This document shows positions 1,331 to 64,000 of a stretch of DNA of 64,000 nucleotides, in pieces. Location of the stretch: contig JAIEMP010000020.1 of NCBI GenBank assembly GCA_019752045.1, positions 1 to 64,000 on the forward strand, in the 5' to 3' direction. Below the pieces are notes generated by a model. That model had not been told where the DNA came from. It did not search any database and was given only the letters and a program-made list of their open reading frames with translations. Position 1 is the stretch's first letter. Every line of letters begins with the position of its first letter. This DNA is from Chitinophagaceae bacterium. Lineage in GTDB: Bacteria > Bacteroidota > Bacteroidia > Chitinophagales > Chitinophagaceae. The translations under genes and the position numbers were made by a program.

Positions 1331-4300
1331 TTACCGTATCAACGTAACCGATCCTGAAACAGGAATAATTCCACCATCGCTGCAAATAATTTCTGTTGTA
1401 TAACTGTAAAGTCCCGGAGGTGCTTTTTGTCCGTTCATCATTCCATCCCAACCCTGTAACGGTTCATTGGCATTGATATATGTTTTCTCAAACACCAGGT
1501 TGCCCCAACGGTTGTAAATACGGAACGATTTTACGTTTTCAATTCCCGGTCCCATTACATAAAAACGATCATTTAAATTATCGCCGTTTGGTGTAAAGGC
1601 ATTCGGGATAAAAATATTATTGCGGTCGCAGAGCACAATCACTTTTACTTCATCAAAACTGTTACAGCCTGCAATATTGGTTGCTATTAAACGATAGGTG
1701 GTTGTTGCATTTGGTGTTGCAATGGGATTAAAACAGGTGGTGCAGGATAATGTTGCCGGTGGCGACCATAAGAACTGCGTTGCATCAGCCGATACAATTG
1801 GCTGCAGCAAAACAGAACTGCCGGCACGTATCACTGTATCTCTGCCTGCATTAACAGTGGGGTAGGGATATACAATTACTGTAACTGTAGCAGTACTTTG
1901 AAAACAATTTAAACTGTCGTAACCTACAACAGTATACGTTGTGGTTGATGTTGGTGAAGCCACCGGTCGGGCTATTGTTGAATCGTTCAAGGAAGTTCCC
2001 GGCGACCACAAATAATTTTCTGCGCCACTTGCATTAAGCTGTATGGATCTGCCTATACAAATGGTATCACCACCCGAAGCAGTAATTGTAAATGGTTTTT
2101 TAACACGTACAATCATACTGTCTGTATTCACACATCCATACAGCGAAGTACCAGTAACAGTATATTGTATATTATCTGTTGCGGCTGCCTGCGGATTTGT
2201 ACAATTGGTACAGGAAAGATAAGTTGAGGGGCTCCAGCTGTAACTGGAAGCACCGGAAGGATTGAGCGTTGCAAAACTGCCCAGACAAATAGTGGTATCG
2301 TTACCCGCCCGTACAATAGGCAGCGGATGTACAACAATGATTTTGTTTGCTGTGTCTCTGCAACCTGTTCCGTTGGTTGCAATCAGTTGCGCAAAGAGTG
2401 TATCTGCATTGGGCCGGCTAATGGCAGGTGGATCTTTTACATTGAAAATTTGCCCATCAATATTCCATCTCCAGTTCATGGCCGATGTATCCGTATTTAA
2501 CCAGTTACCTCTGAGGATTACATTGGCAGGCATGCAATAACTGCTGTCTCCCAAAATTTCAATTTGTGGCGAAGCAACCACTCTTACCAATGCCGTTTTT
2601 GTTCTGGAATTATTACAGCCGTTTAATGTAGTTACAGTTAATGTTACATTGTATAAACCGGGACTGGTATAAGTATGTGCAGGTGGAGTGATGGAATTGG
2701 AAGTGTTACCATCTCCAAAATCCCATAGATAACTTGTGATTACATCGGTTGCAATGGTAGAGTCTATAAACTGAACAGTGCCTCTGTCGCAGAACAAAGC
2801 TGTATCAACACCAAAGTTGGGTCTTGATCCTAATGCTTTAATGGTATCTATTCCCTGTATAATATTGAAGCATCCACGGTTATCAGCAATGATCACTTTA
2901 GGAACATAAAATCCTGCATCATATATATGTACTCTGTTCGAGTCGGTTGATGCAATAATATTTCCATCACCAAAATCCCATGTATAATTTAATGGTATAT
3001 CTGTTCTTGTTTGCAGGTTCACAGTTAATGGTGCACAGCCAATCAATGGAGCATACGTTAATGTACCGGTATCTCTTCCTATGCGGATGGTTTGATAAGC
3101 TGTATCAAAACAATTGCCGGGCGATTGTACAATTAACCGAACCCTGTACACACCCGGGAATACATAAAAATGTTTTGGATTGATATCGGAACTTGTAAAC
3201 CCGTCACCAAAATCCCAGCTTGCATTTAAAGCAAACGTACTCTGGTTACTGAAGATGGCTTCAAATGGTTCACAGATCGTGGCGGTATCATTTACAGTGA
3301 AAGCTGCATTCGGCGTATCAATACGTATGTTGATGGTCATTGAATCTCTGCAGCCGATAGGTTCTGTTACAACCAGCTTTGCAGGATAGATACCAACAGC
3401 TGTATAAATATGCGTAGGACTTGTAAGTGTTGATGTAAACCCGTCACCAAAATTCCATGCATAGGTTTGTGTGCCCGATCCGCCGGTTGTTTGGTTATTG
3501 AACTGCAGCAATGTGCCCGGGCATGCTGGAGTGTCAACTGTAAACATGGCCCTTGGATTTAATACAGTAACAATATTTGCTCTGGTGATTGAATCAGAAC
3601 AACCCGATGCATCGGTTACAATCAGTTTAATATTGTAGGTGCCTGCTGCGGGATAGGTATAACTGAACGGATTGGTTAAACTGCTGATGACATTGCCATT
3701 GCCCATATCCCAACGCACATTTGTAATGGCATTTACTCCATCTGTTGTTGAAGTATTCGTTAATTCTACATTGTTGCTTAAACAAATCTGTCCCTGTAAA
3801 ATAGTATACGATGCCAACGGACCGTTTACACGAATGGCATTGGTACGTGTAAGTGTATCTCTGCAACCATTAATATCTGCAATGATTAAGCTTACAGTAT
3901 AATTGCCTGATGTGGTATATGTATGTGCAGGCGAGGCGGCAGCAGAACTGTTGCCATCTCCAAAATCCCATTGATACGAAACAATATTGGCGGGATTAAA
4001 ATTAATACCTGTAAACTGTACCTGTTGATTGCGGCAAATAGTTGTAGGTGTTGCTCTAAAGTCGGGTGCTTCATCCACCAACGTAATGGTTTGTGATAAC
4101 TGATGTGTACAGGACCCATTCGTAACCGTTAGTGTTACTGTATACGTTCCTAATGATGCAAACGTATGCGATGGGTTTTGTGCAGTTGATGTATTGCCAT
4201 CTCCAAAATTCCATGTCCAGCCTGTAGGTACTACCGACATATCTGTAAACTGAACCTGTCGTTTATTAACAGCACAGTTCACCCCATACCTGAACCTTGC

Positions 4301-6139
4301 AATAGGAGGCAGCACACGAATATAATTGGTGATGCTTACGGTATCGGGGCACCTGTTATTAAACGCAATTAAACGGATGGTAAATAAACCTGTATCCTGA
4401 TAAGTATGTGTTGGGTTTCTTGCACTGGATGTATTGTTATCGCCAAAATCCCAGCTCCATTGATTGGGATTACCGGTTGATAAATCGGTAAACTGTACCG
4501 GTGCAAACGCACAAACATTTAAAGGAACCGCACTGAAAGCAGCGGTTGGTTTTTTACCCACACGTACACTGTCGTAACGGATAGAATCAATACAACCTTG
4601 TGTTGTAACAATGCGTAAACGTACAGCATAACTGCCGGAATCGTACATGTTGGTTGGATTGCGGAGTGTTGATGTATTACCGTTACCAAAATCCCAGAAC
4701 CAGGAAACAATTGAATCGAGCGATGTTGAATTGGGATAGAACTGAACGTTTAATCGTTCACAACCTTCTGCAGGATCAATGATGGGATTAAGGATGGGTC
4801 TTTGAATTCGCACAAACGCAATCCTTGTACTCGTATCAGAACAACCTGATGCATTGGTAGCAATCAGCCTTACTGTAAAATTTCCTGTTGTTGTATAGGT
4901 ATGTGCCGGACTAACGGCAGTAGAGTTATTACCATCACCAAAATCCCATTGATAAGAAATTGCTCCGGTAGAAAGATTTTGAAAGTTAACGGTATGCGGT
5001 GCCCTGCAGGAAATTGTATCCGGACTGTTAAACGCAGCCGTTGGTCTCGGCCTGATGATAATTGTTTTTGTAATAGAGTCGCTGCATCCGTTGAATGTAT
5101 TCACCAGTTTAATGGTATAGGTACCTGTTGCGGTGTAAGACTTTACCGGGTTTGTAAGGGTTGATGTTGTAGCATCACCAAAATCCCATCTTGAATTGGG
5201 AGGAAGGGGAACAGATAAATTCTGCATACTTATAGGTGCATTGATACATGCACTGTCTGGCGAACCAATAATGGGTTGAAAATTATTGAGCTGTACAATA
5301 TTGGTTTTAATAATGGTATCAATACAACCCTGGCTGCTGGTAGTAATTAACCGAACGGTAAATGGTCCGGCAGTTGCATAGGTATTGGTTGGGTTTTGAA
5401 GGGTGGATGTATTGCCATCGCCAAAATCCCATTGATAAGTAAGGGTGGGAGGTCCTGATGACAGGTTGGTGAATGATATAGTTTCAGGTGGTTTGCAATT
5501 TTGTGGAGTTGAAAAATTAAAATCTGCAACTACACCCTGTGATACATTAATATATGCAGGCTTTACAATTGTTTTTGTACAACCGGCGCTGTTGGTAACA
5601 GTAAGGCTCACAAAAAAAGTTCCTGAAGTAGTATAAGTATAGAATGGATTTTGAAGGGTAGAAGTAGCTCCGTTGCCAAAAGCCCAGCTCCAGCTTGTGA
5701 TGGGTCCAAAACCCGGATCAGACAGATCTGTAAACTGCACACGCAATGGAAAACAGCCTGAAGTTACATTGGCTGTAAATTCCGGTACAGGCGGGGCGCT
5801 GACTGTAATATAGTTTGTACGTGTAAGTGTATTACTGCCGCCGGCATTTGTAACCGTTAATATAACTGAATAGGTCCCCGGTGATGTATAAATGGTTGAT
5901 GGATTTCTGGAAGTAGATGTTACCCCGTTGCCCAGATCCCATTGCCAGGAAGTAGGGTTGCCGGTAGAAAGATCAGAAAAATTTACAATCAAAGGTGAAC
6001 AACCGTTTTGTGGTGTGGCAGAAAAATTGGCTACAGGTGCTTGAGCAAATAAATTTGAAAAAGCAAACAGACTAAAAATAAAAAGAAACCCCGGTTTAGA
6101 GGAGAAACAGCTGAAGGGCAGTCCGGGAAATAGTTTCAT
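1331..6139 (-). CDS. Giant PKD-repeat secreted protein, T9SS type B sorting domain
   Basis: A 1602-residue cell-surface or secreted protein. An N-terminal hydrophobic signal segment ends near FSNLFAQA. About fourteen PKD-type domains follow, recognised by WDFGDGNTST-like cores spaced roughly 85-95 residues apart, plus one degenerate copy (WRWNIDGQ). Three Ig-like modules of the YTVTG type come next. The last 85 or so residues form a gliding-motility-associated C-terminal domain (FIPNAFTPNGDNLNDRF, RWGNLVFE, GLYSYTTEI), the type B signal for T9SS export. An adhesin or gliding-related role is inferred. The gene stands alone between a hairpin terminator and rpsL, which is divergent. The extreme repetition makes it prone to copy-number change. 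Confidence 0.9.
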   Translation of the reverse strand: MKLFPGLPFSCFSSKPGFLFIFSLFAFSNLFAQAPVANFSATPQNGCSPLIVNFSDLSTGNPTSWQWDLGNGVTSTSRNPSTIYTSPGTYSVILTVTNAGGSNTLTRTNYITVSAPPVPEFTANVTSGCFPLRVQFTDLSDPGFGPITSWSWAFGNGATSTLQNPFYTYTTSGTFFVSLTVTNSAGCTKTIVKPAYINVSQGVVADFNFSTPQNCKPPETISFTNLSSGPPTLTYQWDFGDGNTSTLQNPTNTYATAGPFTVRLITTSSQGCIDTIIKTNIVQLNNFQPIIGSPDSACINAPISMQNLSVPLPPNSRWDFGDATTSTLTNPVKSYTATGTYTIKLVNTFNGCSDSITKTIIIRPRPTAAFNSPDTISCRAPHTVNFQNLSTGAISYQWDFGDGNNSTAVSPAHTYTTTGNFTVRLIATNASGCSDTSTRIAFVRIQRPILNPIIDPAEGCERLNVQFYPNSTSLDSIVSWFWDFGNGNTSTLRNPTNMYDSGSYAVRLRIVTTQGCIDSIRYDSVRVGKKPTAAFSAVPLNVCAFAPVQFTDLSTGNPNQWSWDFGDNNTSSARNPTHTYQDTGLFTIRLIAFNNRCPDTVSITNYIRVLPPIARFRYGVNCAVNKRQVQFTDMSVVPTGWTWNFGDGNTSTAQNPSHTFASLGTYTVTLTVTNGSCTHQLSQTITLVDEAPDFRATPTTICRNQQVQFTGINFNPANIVSYQWDFGDGNSSAAASPAHTYTTSGNYTVSLIIADINGCRDTLTRTNAIRVNGPLASYTILQGQICLSNNVELTNTSTTDGVNAITNVRWDMGNGNVISSLTNPFSYTYPAAGTYNIKLIVTDASGCSDSITRANIVTVLNPRAMFTVDTPACPGTLLQFNNQTTGGSGTQTYAWNFGDGFTSTLTSPTHIYTAVGIYPAKLVVTEPIGCRDSMTINIRIDTPNAAFTVNDTATICEPFEAIFSNQSTFALNASWDFGDGFTSSDINPKHFYVFPGVYRVRLIVQSPGNCFDTAYQTIRIGRDTGTLTYAPLIGCAPLTVNLQTRTDIPLNYTWDFGDGNIIASTDSNRVHIYDAGFYVPKVIIADNRGCFNIIQGIDTIKALGSRPNFGVDTALFCDRGTVQFIDSTIATDVITSYLWDFGDGNTSNSITPPAHTYTSPGLYNVTLTVTTLNGCNNSRTKTALVRVVASPQIEILGDSSYCMPANVILRGNWLNTDTSAMNWRWNIDGQIFNVKDPPAISRPNADTLFAQLIATNGTGCRDTANKIIVVHPLPIVRAGNDTTICLGSFATLNPSGASSYSWSPSTYLSCTNCTNPQAAATDNIQYTVTGTSLYGCVNTDSMIVRVKKPFTITASGGDTICIGRSIQLNASGAENYLWSPGTSLNDSTIARPVASPTSTTTYTVVGYDSLNCFQSTATVTVIVYPYPTVNAGRDTVIRAGSSVLLQPIVSADATQFLWSPPATLSCTTCFNPIATPNATTTYRLIATNIAGCNSFDEVKVIVLCDRNNIFIPNAFTPNGDNLNDRFYVMGPGIENVKSFRIYNRWGNLVFEKTYINANEPLQGWDGMMNGQKAPPGLYSYTTEIICSDGGIIPVSGSVTLIR

Positions 6140-57860: not shown

Positions 57861-58370
57861 GTGAAGACCATTTTAACAAACGAGCAATTACAATTAACCA
57901 TACAGCGCCTCAGCCATCAGCTGATCGAAAATCATTTTCCGTTTACAGATACTGTTTTAGTTGGGTTGCAGCCGAGGGGTATTTTTCTTGCAGATAAAAT
58001 TGTTTCAGCCATTGAAACATTATATCCCGCCATCAAATTAAACTATGGCAAACTGGATATTACGTTTTACAGAGATGATGCACATAAACAACTGCATGTG
58101 GCCAATCAAACCACTATTCAGTTCAGCATTGAAAATAAAAAAGTCATTCTTATTGATGATGTGTTATACACCGGCCGCACTATCCGTGCGGCAATGGATG
58201 CACTGATTGACTTTGGTCGCCCGGCTAAAGTAGAACTCTGCGTATTGGTTGATAGAAGGTTCAACCGCCAACTCCCCATACAGCCCGACTACACAGGCAA
58301 AGCCATTGACTCCATCTTATCACAAAAAGTAACGGTTGATTGGGAAAAACCGGAAGTGATATTATTATAA
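57861..58370 (+). CDS. pyrR: PyrR-type uracil phosphoribosyltransferase / regulator
   Basis: A 169-residue type I phosphoribosyltransferase starting at GTG (MKTILTNEQLQLTIQRL). The PRPP loop is KVILIDDVLYTGRTIRAAMDAL, and VGLQPRGIFLA and ITFYRDD are also typical of PyrR. In Gram-positive bacteria PyrR binds pyr mRNA and regulates attenuation and also makes UMP. In this phylum the enzymatic role is likely, the RNA role not shown. pyrB lies downstream in the same direction but is separated by the inserted four-helix-bundle cassette. Confidence 0.9.
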   Translation: MKTILTNEQLQLTIQRLSHQLIENHFPFTDTVLVGLQPRGIFLADKIVSAIETLYPAIKLNYGKLDITFYRDDAHKQLHVANQTTIQFSIENKKVILIDDVLYTGRTIRAAMDALIDFGRPAKVELCVLVDRRFNRQLPIQPDYTGKAIDSILSQKVTVDWEKPEVILL

Positions 58371-58460
58371 AATTGAATAGAAAAATCCAAAATCCAAATA
58401 CCAGAATCCAAAAAAGGCAGTTTTCATAATAATAATTTATCAAAATAGAAACATCTTCTT

Positions 58461-58814
58461 ATGTCAGCTCAACTTGAGGAAAGGACTTATCATTTTGCAA
58501 ATGATGTGAGGAATTTTTGCAGAAAGTTAACTTGGGACGTCATCAACCAGGAAGACATAAAACAGGTAGTACGTTCAAGCGGATCAGTAGAGGCGAATTA
58601 CATAGAAGCGAATGAAAACCTTGGTCAGGCAGATTTGCGAATGCGGATAAGGATTTCAAGAAAGGAAGCGAAAGAATCCATCCGTTGGCTGAGGTTATTA
58701 CATATCGAAACTAAAAAGGCAGAGCTTGAGTCGGAAAGGTCAAGGTTAATAGATGAAGCCGATCAACTTCGGAAAATATTCTCTGCAATTCTTTTAAAAT
58801 TGGGTGATAAGTGA
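58461..58814 (+). CDS. Four-helix-bundle protein (23S rRNA intervening-sequence/S23 family-like)
   Basis: A 117-residue, mainly helical protein (MSAQLEERTYHFANDVRNFC, VRSSGSVEANYIEANENLGQADLRMRIRISRKEAKESIRWLRLLH). It matches the four-helix-bundle family first met inside 23S rRNA intervening sequences and now seen in many bacterial genomes as orphan genes. Proteins of the fold form pentamer-like rings in related Avd accessory proteins of diversity-generating retroelements. No reverse transcriptase is nearby. It sits inside inverted CCAAAATCC-type repeats between pyrR and pyrB. Confidence 0.85.
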   Translation: MSAQLEERTYHFANDVRNFCRKLTWDVINQEDIKQVVRSSGSVEANYIEANENLGQADLRMRIRISRKEAKESIRWLRLLHIETKKAELESERSRLIDEADQLRKIFSAILLKLGDK

Positions 58815-58860
58815 CTTCGTTCAATTGCAAGGGGTTGCTGATTTTTTGCCTTTTGAGTAT

Positions 58861-58969
58861 TGGGTTTTGGATTTTCTATTTTGGGTTCTGTCTTTTGGAT
58901 ATTGGGTTTTGGATTTTCTATTTTGGGTTCTGTCTTTTGGATATTGGGTTTTGGATTTTCTATTTTGGG
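58861..58969 (+). repeat. 42-bp tandem repeat, 2.7 copies
   Basis: Unit TGGGTTTTGGATTTTCTATT... at 58861-58902 and 58903-58944, and a partial third at 58945-58969. The unit length is a multiple of three, so it stays open in several frames and produces the spurious WVLDFLFWVLSFG ORFs. Confidence 0.9.
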
Positions 58970-58994
58970 TTTTGCCTTCCGAACCTTAGCTTTG
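58964..58994 (+). promoter_or_regulatory. pyrB promoter, partly inside the repeat
   Basis: TTTG (58964-58967), within the last 42-bp unit, and TAGCTTTG (58987-58994) are exactly 19 bases apart. The pyrB ATG follows 7 bases after the -7 box, so the message would be nearly leaderless. Confidence 0.75.
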
Positions 58995-59001
58995 CTTTTT
59001 A

Positions 59002-59934
59002 ATGCAACTATCCACTCGTCATCTGCTCGGCATTAAAGATCTTACGGCTCAGGATATTCAGTTAATCCTCGATACAGCCACTCAATTCAAAGAAGTTTTA
59101 CAACGACCCATTAAAAAAGTTCCATCACTTCGTGATGTAACCATTGTAAATCTGTTTTACGAAAACTCTACCCGCACAAGGATCTCCTTCGAACTGGCGG
59201 AAAAAAGATTGAGTGCTGATACCATTAATTTTACTGCATCCGGTTCATCAGCAGCAAAAGGAGAAACATTGTTAGATACAGTGAATAATATCCTGAGCAT
59301 GAAAGTGGATATGGTAGTGATGCGGCACAGTGCCAGCGGTGCACCACATTTTTTGGCCAAACATATTCCGGCTGCTATAGTAAATGCAGGCGATGGAATT
59401 AATGAACATCCCACACAAGCCTTACTCGATGCATTTTCTATACGGGAGAAATTAGGAACATTGGAAGGAAAAAAAATTGCCATCCTTGGTGATATCATGC
59501 ATAGCCGTGTTGCGCTCAGCAATATTTATTTATTAAAGAAGATGGGAGCTGAAGTAACCGTTGCCGGTCCGCCCACATTGATACCAAAATATCTGCAACA
59601 GGCATTTAATGTAAACGTATCGTATAACATTGAAGAAACATTAAAGTGGTGTGATGTGGCCAATGTGTTGCGTATTCAGCTGGAGCGGCAAAGTCAGCCA
59701 TTGTTCTCTTCTCTGCGGGAGTATAATCTTGCATACGGAATCAGCCGAAAGTTATTGGATTCATTAAATAAAGAAATTGTGATTATGCATCCCGGCCCAA
59801 TCAACCGGGGGGTGGAAATAGACAGTGATGTGGCCGATAGCAAACAATCCATTATTCTGCAACAGGTAGAAAATGGAGTAGCTGTAAGAATGGCCGCACT
59901 GTATCTGCTTGCAGGAAAACGTACAGAAAACTGA
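59002..59934 (+). CDS. pyrB: Aspartate carbamoyltransferase catalytic subunit
   Basis: PyrB (310 residues) condenses carbamoyl phosphate and aspartate in pyrimidine synthesis. Carbamoyl-phosphate motifs are FYENSTRTRISFELAEKRL, with the later VMRHSASGAPHFLAK and INAGDGINEHPTQALLDAF-like region (VNAGDGINEHPTQALLDAFSI). The C-terminal aspartate site includes VLRIQLERQ and MHPGPINRGVEID. Length is normal for the catalytic chain. pyrI is not adjacent. Its likely promoter lies at the end of the upstream repeat cassette. Confidence 0.97.
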   Translation: MQLSTRHLLGIKDLTAQDIQLILDTATQFKEVLQRPIKKVPSLRDVTIVNLFYENSTRTRISFELAEKRLSADTINFTASGSSAAKGETLLDTVNNILSMKVDMVVMRHSASGAPHFLAKHIPAAIVNAGDGINEHPTQALLDAFSIREKLGTLEGKKIAILGDIMHSRVALSNIYLLKKMGAEVTVAGPPTLIPKYLQQAFNVNVSYNIEETLKWCDVANVLRIQLERQSQPLFSSLREYNLAYGISRKLLDSLNKEIVIMHPGPINRGVEIDSDVADSKQSIILQQVENGVAVRMAALYLLAGKRTEN

Positions 59935-61129: not shown

Positions 61130-61410
61130 TTTAGCCAAACTTTTATTTTCCGGAACTCACCGATAAAATCTGATGGTTGAACGATGAGCGCTATTATACT
61201 GTAAAAACCCGCCCTACATTTACATTACAGAGAGCAACAGAAAAGAATTTAAATCCAATATCTGTAAAAGAACCCAATCCAAATCCTAAAAAAGAACCAG
61301 ATCCAAATCCAAGTCCTTGAAAAACCAATGAGTTACCGGACCCCTGAAACATCAACATCAGGAAACCCTACAACCACAATAAGTCCCGCCAAAAGCGGGG
61401 CTATTTTTTT
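61130..61410 (+). ncRNA. Candidate small RNA gene, array copy 1
   Basis: The unit carries an upstream block ACCGATAAAAT-N7-TTGAACGATGAGC, then exactly 25 bases to a -7 box (TACATTTA, 61215-61222). The predicted transcript (about 61229-61409, roughly 180 nt) begins AGAGAGCAACAG. It has two GAACCMRATCCAAATCC boxes (at 61270 and 61294) with a 24-nt period, then CCTGA/TCAGG and a terminator (AGTCCCGC / GCGGGGCT plus T run, 61382-61410). It has no ORF conserved between copies. RNA status is inferred from promoter and terminator signals. Confidence 0.65.
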
Positions 61411-61443
61411 ATGATCATCATCCGGGATCATTTAGATTTTACT

Positions 61444-61748
61444 TTTTAGCTAAACTCCTGTTTTCAGGATCTCACCGATAAAATAAGTATGTTGAACGAT
61501 GAGCTCTTAACAGCAACAACAACCTGCTTTATATTTACATTACAGAGAGCAACAGAAAAAAGTAAATCCAATACCTGTAAAAAGAACCCAATCCAAATCC
61601 TGTAAAAGAACCAGATCCAGATCCTAAAAAAGAACCCAATCCAAATTCATGACCTTGAAAAACCTATGAGTTACCGGACCCCTGAAACAACAACATCAGG
61701 AAACCCAACAACCACTATAAGTCCCGCCAAAAGCGGGGCTGTTTTTTT
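61444..61748 (+). ncRNA. Candidate small RNA gene, array copy 2
   Basis: Same design as copy 1: ACCGATAAAAT-N7-TTGAACGATGAGC (61474-61504), 25 bases, -7 box TATATTTA (61530-61537). The transcript of about 205 nt has three GAACC boxes at 61584, 61608 and 61632, each 24 nt apart. The tail TGAGTTACCGGACCCCTGAA matches copy 1 almost exactly, and it ends in the same GTCCCGC/GCGGGGC terminator (61720-61748). This is the longest of the three copies. Sequence between copies 1 and 2 and after copy 2 is not conserved. Confidence 0.65.
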
Positions 61749-61887
61749 ATAGCTATTGCAGGTTGCAGTTTTATACAGCAAAGCTTTCGAAGTATAGAAG
61801 GATGATGTCGGGAACAGCCGATTCATTTATTTGATGAACCCTTTTGCCTGATGCAATAGCCGCAGAAGCGGATTTCTTCAACCCAAT

Positions 61888-62138
61888 TTTTATCTGAACT
61901 TTTATTTGAATGTATTCATCGATAAAATAGGCTCTTTGAACGATGAGCAGTTTTTAAATATATAAACCCAAAATATATTTGCATCCGGAGAACAACAGAA
62001 AATTATTCGAATCCGTATCCTGAAAGAACCAGATCCACATCCAATATCCGGAAAAACTAAAAAGCAACGTGCCCGGAATGTTTAATTCAGGAAACCCTAA
62101 AACCACAACAAGCCCCGCCAAAAGCGGGGTTTATTTTT
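61888..62138 (+). ncRNA. Candidate small RNA gene, array copy 3
   Basis: The most diverged copy: ATCGATAAAAT-N7-TTGAACGATGAGC (61918-61948), again 25 bases, then TATATTTG (61974-61981), an exact consensus -7 box, with TTTT 19 bases upstream. The transcript of about 150 nt has a single GAACC box at 62026. It ends with AGCCCCGC/GCGGGGTT and a T run (62111-62138). This terminator also borders the stop of the convergent gene on the minus strand, so it may serve both. Spacing is conserved exactly although the body has drifted. Confidence 0.6.
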
Positions 62139-63136
62139 TAGGGTAAACGCAATACAGCAATCCGGCCACGACTTCCTGCGAGGTAAACAGCCTTCCCTTT
62201 TTTTGCCTTACGCACCACATGAAAACCTGTTGTTGAAATGTTGCTCCAGTTCATGCCGCCATCTTCACTTACATCCACACCGGTAATACCACAGGTAATT
62301 AATTTTGATTTAGACATATATTCAACACAACTTCTGTAACCAAAGGGTGGAGTAGTGGGTGCAACAAAAGTTTTACCTCCATCTTTTGAAAGCACACAAT
62401 TTTTTTCAGTTGAAGTGGCATTGCTGAAATCGCCGCCAACAATCACAAATGTTTTTTTATCCCATACAGCAATGGAGTTAGCACCGGTACTTTCTTTTCC
62501 CTGCAGAATGGGTAAATCAATTTTCTGATCACGGATAAATAACCTCGACCGAGTGCCACCTGTTATAAAACAAGCTTCATCTTTTGCCAGCTTCCTTACA
62601 TTGGTGCCGCTGCTGGCAAACATCGCTTCGCCTTTTTCGGCGGTGGGATAATAAGCATCCGGTAAACCACGCCAATGTTCACCAGCATCAAATGTTCGTG
62701 CAATAAAAATTTTACCATCAATGGGATCGCCAATCACAATACCGCTCATTTCATTCCAGAATTCCATGGCATCTAAAAACATTCCCGGTCGTTTATCTTC
62801 ATAAACTTTCTTCCATGTTTTTCCTGCATCTGTTGTTTTTAAAATTACAGCAGGTGTATCAATCCCCATGATGATGGCTGTCTTTGCATCAAAGGCTTCA
62901 ATATCTCTGAAATCTGTTTTTTGATATCCCGGTACATTCATCCAGGAAAATGTTTTTCCTCCATTGGTTGAAAGCGCAACCGTTCCATTACTTCCGCTTG
63001 CCCAAACTATATTGTCATTCACTACACTCAACCCACGGATTGAAACGGTTTTATTACTATCGAGTATTTGAATGGATTGTGCTGATAGTTGTAAACTGTA
63101 CACTGCAAGCAAAACACAAAAAAGAAATTGTTTCAT
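62138..63136 (-). CDS. Secreted YCF48/BNR-type beta-propeller protein
   Basis: A 332-residue protein from MKQFLFCVLLAVYSLQLSAQ; the ORF-track start three codons upstream is a TTG. Repeated strand units are visible: GTVALSTNGGKTFSWMNV, AVILKTTDAGKTWKKVYEDK, IFIARTFDAGEHWRGL, CVLSKDGGKTFVAPT and VDVSEDGGMNWSNIS. These resemble the S-x-D-x-G-x-T-W Asp-box of sialidase-like propellers, as in YCF48-type photosystem II assembly and stability factors. No catalytic residues can be named. It converges on the small RNA array. Confidence 0.8.
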   Translation of the reverse strand: MKQFLFCVLLAVYSLQLSAQSIQILDSNKTVSIRGLSVVNDNIVWASGSNGTVALSTNGGKTFSWMNVPGYQKTDFRDIEAFDAKTAIIMGIDTPAVILKTTDAGKTWKKVYEDKRPGMFLDAMEFWNEMSGIVIGDPIDGKIFIARTFDAGEHWRGLPDAYYPTAEKGEAMFASSGTNVRKLAKDEACFITGGTRSRLFIRDQKIDLPILQGKESTGANSIAVWDKKTFVIVGGDFSNATSTEKNCVLSKDGGKTFVAPTTPPFGYRSCVEYMSKSKLITCGITGVDVSEDGGMNWSNISTTGFHVVRKAKKGKAVYLAGSRGRIAVLRLP

Positions 63137-63393: not shown

Positions 63394-64000
63394 ATGACCG
63401 AATACAACTATCTCCCCCTCGACGAACAGCAACTCACTTTCGATGAAGTGAAGAATTATCTGCAGTTCAAACAATTTGTATCCATTACGTTTCGTGCACA
63501 TCACAAAATTGAAAAATGCCGGCAATACCTCGATAAAAAAGTAGCAGAAAGTGATACGCCCTTCTACGGCATCAACACCGGTTTTGGTTTTTTGCAAAAC
63601 GTGATCATTGCCGATGATCAGTTGGAGCAACTGCAGAATAATCTGTTGATGAGTCATGCATGTGGTATGGGCGATGAAGTACCTGAAGAAATTGTAAAGC
63701 TCATGCTCGCCTTAAAAATAAAATCGCTCAGCTATGGTTACAGTGCAGTGCAGGTAGATACCGTGAAGCGTTTAATGGACATGCACAACAACAATGTGCT
63801 GCCTGTTATTTATCAGCAGGGATCATTGGGCGCAAGTGGCGATCTGGCTCCATTGAGTCATTTGAGTTTGCCATTGATCGGAATGGGAGAAGTAAGTTAT
63901 GAAGGTGCAAGGCACAAGGCACAAGATGTACTCAAGAAATTAAACTGGCAACCCATTCATTTAAAAAGTAAAGAAGGATTAGCACTCATCAACGGTACAC
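63394..64000 (+). CDS. hutH: Histidine ammonia-lyase, 5' part (runs off the window)
   Basis: The ORF track omits this gene because it is still open at the window end. It starts MTEYNYLPLDEQQLTFDEV and gives 202 residues before the edge. The histidine ammonia-lyase family is shown by FYGINTGFGFLQNV, SLSYGYSAVQVDTV, the MIO-forming ASG in GSLGASGDLAPLSHLSLPLIG and EGLALINGT at the edge. It converts histidine to urocanate, the first step of histidine degradation. Tyrosine or phenylalanine ammonia-lyase relatives cannot be fully excluded from the fragment. A short GGCACAA repeat lies in GARHKAQD. Confidence 0.9.
   Translation, partial: MTEYNYLPLDEQQLTFDEVKNYLQFKQFVSITFRAHHKIEKCRQYLDKKVAESDTPFYGINTGFGFLQNVIIADDQLEQLQNNLLMSHACGMGDEVPEEIVKLMLALKIKSLSYGYSAVQVDTVKRLMDMHNNNVLPVIYQQGSLGASGDLAPLSHLSLPLIGMGEVSYEGARHKAQDVLKKLNWQPIHLKSKEGLALINGT

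Follow-up and report, generated by a model that had tools for sequence, protein, structure and literature searches.

The window (the whole stretch of 64,000 nucleotides analysed, from contig JAIEMP010000020.1 of a Chitinophagaceae bacterium) carries between pyrR and pyrB a gene for a four-helix-bundle (FHB) protein of the S23/IVP family, enclosed by two inverted arrays, here called arms, of a 7-bp word. Comparison with related and more distant genomes suggests that gene and arms form one unit, which is probably a widespread selfish or mobile element. The features of the locus are as follows.

57861 to 58370, plus strand: pyrR, left neighbour, outside the element (NF003549, 180 bits)
58376 to 58415, plus strand: left arm, about five degenerate AAAATCC heptads, with a core at 58382 to 58413 (TRF period 7; inverted match to the right arm)
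58461 to 58814, plus strand: FHB gene, 117 amino acids, S23/IVP family (TIGR02436, 53.3 bits)
58844 to 58978, plus strand: right arm, 42-bp (6 x 7) tandem units that comprise about 18 heptads of the complement of that word (TRF period 42, 95% match)
58964 to 58967, plus strand: -33 TTTG of the pyrB promoter, within the last repeat unit (TTTG-N19-TAGCTTTG)
58987 to 58994, plus strand: -7 TAGCTTTG of the pyrB promoter (pattern match)
59002 to 59934, plus strand: pyrB, right neighbour, outside the element (NF002032, 402 bits)

The left arm begins 5 bases past the pyrR stop codon, and both arms are built from one 7-bp word, AAAATCC / GGATTTT. An earlier note on this DNA, which had overlooked the heptads, had placed an FHB gene between inverted arms in the pyrR-pyrB gap, and the open reading frames (ORFs) and arms were found as claimed, including a right arm made of a 42-bp tandem repeat (3.1 copies, 95% match by TRF), which was scored also at a period of 21. 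The reverse complementarity of 38 to 42 bases described there holds as an inverted match but is imperfect, extending over 32 nt at 81% without gaps and over 41 columns, with a score of 35, when gaps are allowed; the flanks of other loci average 17 and reach at most 20. In an RNA fold of the cassette the arms pair, and the overall z is -2.0 against shuffles. The window copy has the stem-capable complementary ends around an S23-type ORF that characterize the intervening sequences (IVSs) of 23S rRNA, and it lies between pyrR and pyrB, not inside a 23S rRNA gene. Of the cassette bounded by terminal inverted repeats that had been proposed, the inverted arms remain, but they are arrays of a cassette-specific short word and not classical terminal inverted repeats.

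Comparison of related species shows that a given gene junction has the cassette in some of them and lacks it in others. Within the genus the pyrR-pyrB junction is empty in four species (30 to 33 bp) and filled with an FHB gene in seven, which bears out the insertion suggested by the earlier note, whose proposed check was to look for empty sites at this junction in relatives; in three further species no pyrB lay within 1.5 kb. Two of the filled sites hold the window's FHB type (89% identical, word AAAATCC) and five hold another (55-60%, word ACAAGGC). The nearest species by PyrR (G012) carries the other type and word, its FHB being 55.7% identical to that of the window, and between it and the window genome (G000) the last 100 bp of pyrR are 98% and the first 120 bp of pyrB 97% identical, with different cassettes between them. 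The sdhA-sdhB junction measures 23-25 bp and has no cassette in six species; the FHB genes found there in the window species and in G012 are 99% identical, and that of G008 differs from them. Polymorphism for an FHB cassette extends to the purE site and hemE-hemJ, and at hemE-hemJ three species hold an inverted pair of arrays without a gene. Two other arrangements were seen at these junctions. The sdhA-sdhB site of one species (L207, genome G001) contains a relic of a left arm, after which come about 650 bp of unrelated DNA and no FHB gene. At the purE site (L217 against L219-L224) the window genome is without the terminator- and promoter-like region seen at empty sites, and its right arm adjoins the purE start codon.

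Empty sites also bear on the age of the pyrB promoter. They already have GTTG-N20-TATCTTTG before pyrB, and the old -33 element lies in the end of pyrR and is displaced by the insert. Six filled sites out of seven keep the TANNTTTG box and have, 19-20 bp upstream of it, a TTG (TTTG or CTTG) that lies in inserted sequence, and the re-supplied TTG occurs with both cassette types; the filled site of G009 has no match to the promoter pattern. Since the TANNTTTG box stands at the same place in four empty sites, the -7 box is probably older than the insert. In the window the reported TTTG-N19-TAGCTTTG is an exact match (58964-58967 to 58987-58994), and its -33 TTTG does come from the last repeat unit; a wholly new promoter for pyrB, as had been suggested, does not follow, because the one at the empty sites indicates that a promoter was already there and that the insert took the place of part of it.

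The generality of the arms was measured by scoring the left flank of each gene against the reverse complement of the right flank, with a threshold of 24. The window genome contains 16 FHB genes, all of which, judged by eye, lie between inverted arrays of their own word (GATGAGT, AGTTTGT, TAGCCAT and GGGCAAT among them), and 14 of the 16 loci reach the threshold. Among 99 Bacteroidota genomes the family was found in 74, and in a sample of 106 FHB loci, which consists mostly of best-scoring family members and is therefore not a random draw, 78% had inverted flanks at or above 24, against 4% when flanks were swapped between loci. Arrays of 7 or 8 bp on both sides accompanied 76.4% of the FHB genes. 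For 665 ordinary genes of the window genome the corresponding values were 4.2% for inverted flanks of at least 24 and 0.9% for two-sided 7-bp arrays, so that chance was rejected as the origin of the inverted arms, as were heptads as a general property of gene flanks. Self-similarity of the flanks of the 106 loci peaks at lags of 7, 14, 21 and 28, and no such series was found in distant controls or within the FHB genes themselves. The search of genomes for FHB genes with inverted repeats, which the earlier note had proposed, thus found arms to be general but not a shared word, and a single fixed word for all FHB genes was discarded because words vary inside one genome. The median arm length of 37 nt (quartiles 31-52) does not establish exactly five heptads per arm, as a match to a pentamer would have it, and a strict 7-bp period is contradicted by an 8-bp clade and by some arrays of 9 and 15 bp.

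Beyond the Bacteroidota, plasmid FHB genes of cyanobacteria, Azospirillum and Gemmatirosa had arms in 12 of 12 cases, all with scores of at least 29, while phage records gave one weak match only. Among relatives of the Azospirillum IVS protein in named genomes, 16 of 21 reach the threshold of 24, and many relatives have an AGTC core at a spacing of 7, 8, 9 or 15 (7+8) bp. Plasmid copies lie between cas6 and cas4, cmr2 and cmr3, or two ribonucleotide reductase genes, and some are antisense to the genes that flank them. FHB genes such as those of L193, L194 and L197, which sit within CRISPR operons (cas6-cas4, cmr2-cmr3), have been counted as cas-associated (PMC3936711), and in view of their flanking arms they may instead be insertions. 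Inverted arms were also observed at GxxExxY genes (PF13366, PDDEXK_3 nuclease; L282-L311, in relatives of the window genome), of which 18 of 30 score at least 24, against 7% across loci; their arms often have an ACAGAG, ACAGAT or ACAAAG core, at a spacing of about 8-10 bp and not 7. These genes are a second, analogous armed family, with a predicted nuclease fold.

The window FHB protein belongs to the S23/IVP family by TIGR02436 (53.3 bits, above the cut-off of 24) and falls slightly below the cut-off of PF05635 (32.7 against 33.8). Profile searches matched only these two models, and no transposase, nuclease or other catalytic domain was found in the protein. Its AlphaFold model (pLDDT 91) is closest in the PDB to the S23 protein 2rld (TM 0.80), and also matches XCC0516 (2gsc) and the Avd subunits of the diversity-generating retroelement (DGR) ribonucleoprotein 8ub7. 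XCC0516 is an FHB protein from Xanthomonas campestris, presumably, by its locus-tag prefix, from the same strain as the GGGAATC repeats considered below. The solved relatives 2rld and 2gsc each have five chains, and 2gsc is described, in a title cited in PMC3936711, as an assembly of five four-helix bundles. Within types the dN/dS of the FHB gene is 0.03-0.13, which amounts to purifying selection, and between types it is saturated or larger; by this measure the gene is kept functional.

Arms and protein lineages are tied to each other. On a tree of FHB proteins, which has few columns and many open forks, the period class (7 or 8 bp) changes 11 times, against 19.4 when shuffled, and 0 of 500 shuffles were as low; in a well-supported clade of ten all assigned members are of 8 bp, some of them sharing a genomic site. 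Arms were further compared by strand-specific 4-mer similarity, with pairs that have a common neighbour gene set apart to remove shared sites. Similarity of different-site pairs rises with FHB identity from.165 (<40%) to.249 (55-60%),.341 (60-70%) and.430 (>70%), and for the 986 such pairs of at least 45% identity its mean is.216, compared with a mean of.178 and a maximum of.203 in 1000 permutations. Permuting the order of heptads weakens arm pairing (mean z 0.80, 98 loci), which implies that the two arms match beyond the shared word. Because related FHB genes at different sites have related words, and word and period follow FHB phylogeny, the arms travel with the gene. The comparisons thus show arms that belong to the FHB gene, and the unit can be described as an FHB gene with two inverted arrays of a 7-bp word (8 or 9 bp in some clades).

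Such arrays also occur without a gene. In 864 kb of the window genome, from which solo arrays were sampled, 46 arrays were found at lag 7, a few of them FHB arms, and control lags of 5, 8, 10, 11 and 13 gave 0-3 arrays per stretch. Of 45 solo arrays, 22 fit a resident FHB word better than foreign FHB sets at P<0.1, where 4.5 were expected. Comparison thus shows gene-less inverted pairs and solo arrays of resident words to be dispersed in the genome. One solo array lies in the window itself (63902 to 63925, plus strand) and has the word ACAAGGC of the other FHB type at pyrR-pyrB in the sister species. At another locus (L172, G000 C1 42048-43185) two solo inverted TTTGTAG arrays, 1 kb apart, enclose a pheS-like gene, possibly by chance. 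The abundance of heptad arrays without FHB genes (45 in 864 kb) would agree with arrays and hairpins being made by the host, through replication slippage as long simple sequence repeats, and with FHB genes merely inserting or surviving there; heptanucleotides are reported, where PMC4679880 cites Mrazek, to be more abundant in many bacteria than any other long simple repeat. We regard this origin as improbable, for word and period track FHB phylogeny at different sites, arrays are absent from most empty sites, and a host process would not give every FHB gene of one genome its own word.

The main rival is regulatory. In 89 of 105 loci the coding strand of the upstream arm is rich in purines, and the triplets of this arm are strongly skewed relative to their complements (GAG 138:5, AGG 150:13). 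This strand polarity, with an AG-triplet core on the transcript side, is what would be seen if an FHB pentamer bound AG-core repeats at both ends of its own transcript (the 5' and 3' untranslated regions) in the manner of TRAP or Csr and so controlled its mRNA or operon, the genes having spread by ordinary horizontal transfer and recombination. Purifying selection on the FHB gene, insertions between genes of operons and the occurrence of the Avd fold in a ribonucleoprotein are in keeping with it. Autoregulation alone leaves unexplained the gene-less pairs, the large number of solo arrays that have resident words but lie far from any FHB gene, and the different FHB types at the same junctions, and the plasmid copies antisense to their neighbours also speak against it. 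As a sole account it is thus unlikely, although control of the transcript could coexist with mobility. Cognate pairing of protein and repeat, together with a scattered multicopy distribution, would also suit an addiction or defence system in which repeat RNA and FHB protein act like a toxin-antitoxin pair (in type III systems a tandem-repeat RNA restrains the protein). Little credit can be given to that idea: the protein has the fold of S23 and Avd proteins and no RNase or other toxin domain, many copies are arrays only, and the arms are inverted on both sides and are not a single upstream array.

We put at about 0.65 the probability that the unit is a selfish or mobile element of wide occurrence, with arms that are recognised by its own pentameric FHB protein; from the pattern of these comparisons we infer both the recognition and the chemistry of movement. 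TRAP serves as a model for the recognition of a repeated core. In this manner the FHB pentamer would bind the repeated core of its own arms, one core per protomer, perhaps on a single strand or hairpin, and this recognition would let the element be copied or moved by host enzymes, with gene-less pairs copied or moved in trans. Thanks to its hairpin shape and the restored -33 TTG, an insert between co-transcribed genes may be tolerated, and the IVSs of 23S rRNA, of which a single case was examined, would be copies of this element that landed in an rRNA helix.

Several points weigh against a mobile element. No transposition event has been observed. Insertions replace the intergenic spacer and leave no clean duplications at the compared junctions, and a target-site duplication is not definable because the spacers are replaced and diverged; replacement of a cassette at one site could arise by ordinary recombination between cassettes. 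As the FHB protein has no catalytic domain, movement would require a host or helper enzyme, and strong purifying selection on it could also reflect a host function. Arrays were found in 121 of 139 loci, leaving about 13% without a recognisable one. The correlation of protein and word fades under about 50% identity, since words evolve fast, and the armed GxxExxY genes mean that inverted arms are not unique to FHB genes.

A broader proposal, to which we give a little less than even odds, is that the units form a distinct cross-phylum class of transposase-less elements, in which a pentameric FHB protein reads one 7-9 nt word core per subunit and protein and word co-evolve. This class would be the source of the short tandemly repeated repetitive sequences (STRRs), the trnL P6b heptads, the Xanthomonas GGGAATC repeats and the 23S IVSs. 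If cognate recognition is true, nature offers very many protein-word pairs from which a recognition code might be learned. The data also warn that FHB genes in cas or biosynthetic operons may be insertions and not members of the pathway.

Other repeats were noted in the window. The AAATCCAAATCC repeats at 61251-61646 were considered as relatives of the heptad arms and rejected, as they seem to be approximate copies of a different small unit. In the region 61240-62140, which has no long ORF, a small unit with AATCCAAATCCTGTAAAAGAACC-like repeats is present in three approximate copies, and after each copy comes a CCCGCCAAAAGCGGGG hairpin that resembles a terminator. At 2715-5421 there are nine occurrences of CCAAAATCC, most of them spaced by about 240-255 bp, which may belong to a long repeated coding sequence.

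Among known systems the 23S rRNA IVS is the nearest, with the same protein family, stem-forming complementary ends and a long-standing suspicion of mobility or selfishness (in Coxiella and Leptospira, with an S23/IVP ORF; PMC4990558). Since the 1990s the S23/IVP proteins have been regarded as passengers of 23S rRNA to which no function is assigned. The link of the FHB family to mobile rRNA IVSs made in the earlier note is supported by L198 (Azospirillum plasmid AZO_p2), a classical IVS with Rfam large-subunit (LSU) rRNA on both sides and the stem CAGAGGA CGGATGA CAGAGGA CGGAGGA CAG; among the loci checked with Rfam it alone lies in LSU rRNA, a single rRNA case being a small sample. Unlike an IVS, the window copy is placed between protein genes, as are nearly all the others, and arms of a repeated word with a tie to the FHB lineage were not found described.

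RAYTs are Y1 transposases, and the repeats of the RAYT/REP (REPIN) system are palindromes. The FHB unit resembles that system as a single gene flanked by its own inverted short repeats, with many gene-less copies dispersed; it has no Y1 (HUH) transposase, and would work alike without being a member. RAYT genes were rejected as the source of the arms, as 0 of 8 Y1 genes of the window genome have 7-bp arrays. Classical insertion sequences and transposons differ in having a transposase domain. Eukaryotic foldback transposons have terminal inverted repeats made of tandem short units, but the likeness is one of anatomy alone, since hosts and proteins differ. The DGR accessory protein Avd has a similar fold and acts in an RNA-protein complex (8ub7); no reverse transcriptase was found among the ORFs in 57861-59934, and next to the FHB loci that were read neither such an enzyme nor a template repeat came to light, though no systematic search was made.

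Arrays of 7-bp words have been described separately as cyanobacterial STRR hairpins (PMC2670836), stems of Nostoc trnL P6b on the motifs TDNGATT or NNTGAGT (PMC4476775, PMC3488679), TAACTGA repeats (PMC4679880) and, in one strain of Xanthomonas campestris, GGGAATC repeats that are often paired in inverted orientation (PMC4692102). They share with the FHB arms 7-bp words, frequent inverted pairs or hairpins and a place in intergenic regions or an intron loop, and the class II trnL motif NNTGAGT fits the word GATGAGT of the window genome. Their origin or function is unexplained in the literature, and no link to FHB genes was found in those papers; the one proposed here would tie them with the FHB gene as one unit. 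Within the open PMC literature (subscription papers and preprints lying outside it) no paper was found that ties FHB genes to heptad arms. The protein family and the stem-forming ends of the S23/IVS element are already known; what appears to be new is that the arms consist of cognate words, that FHB units live between genes, and that derivatives of them are dispersed.
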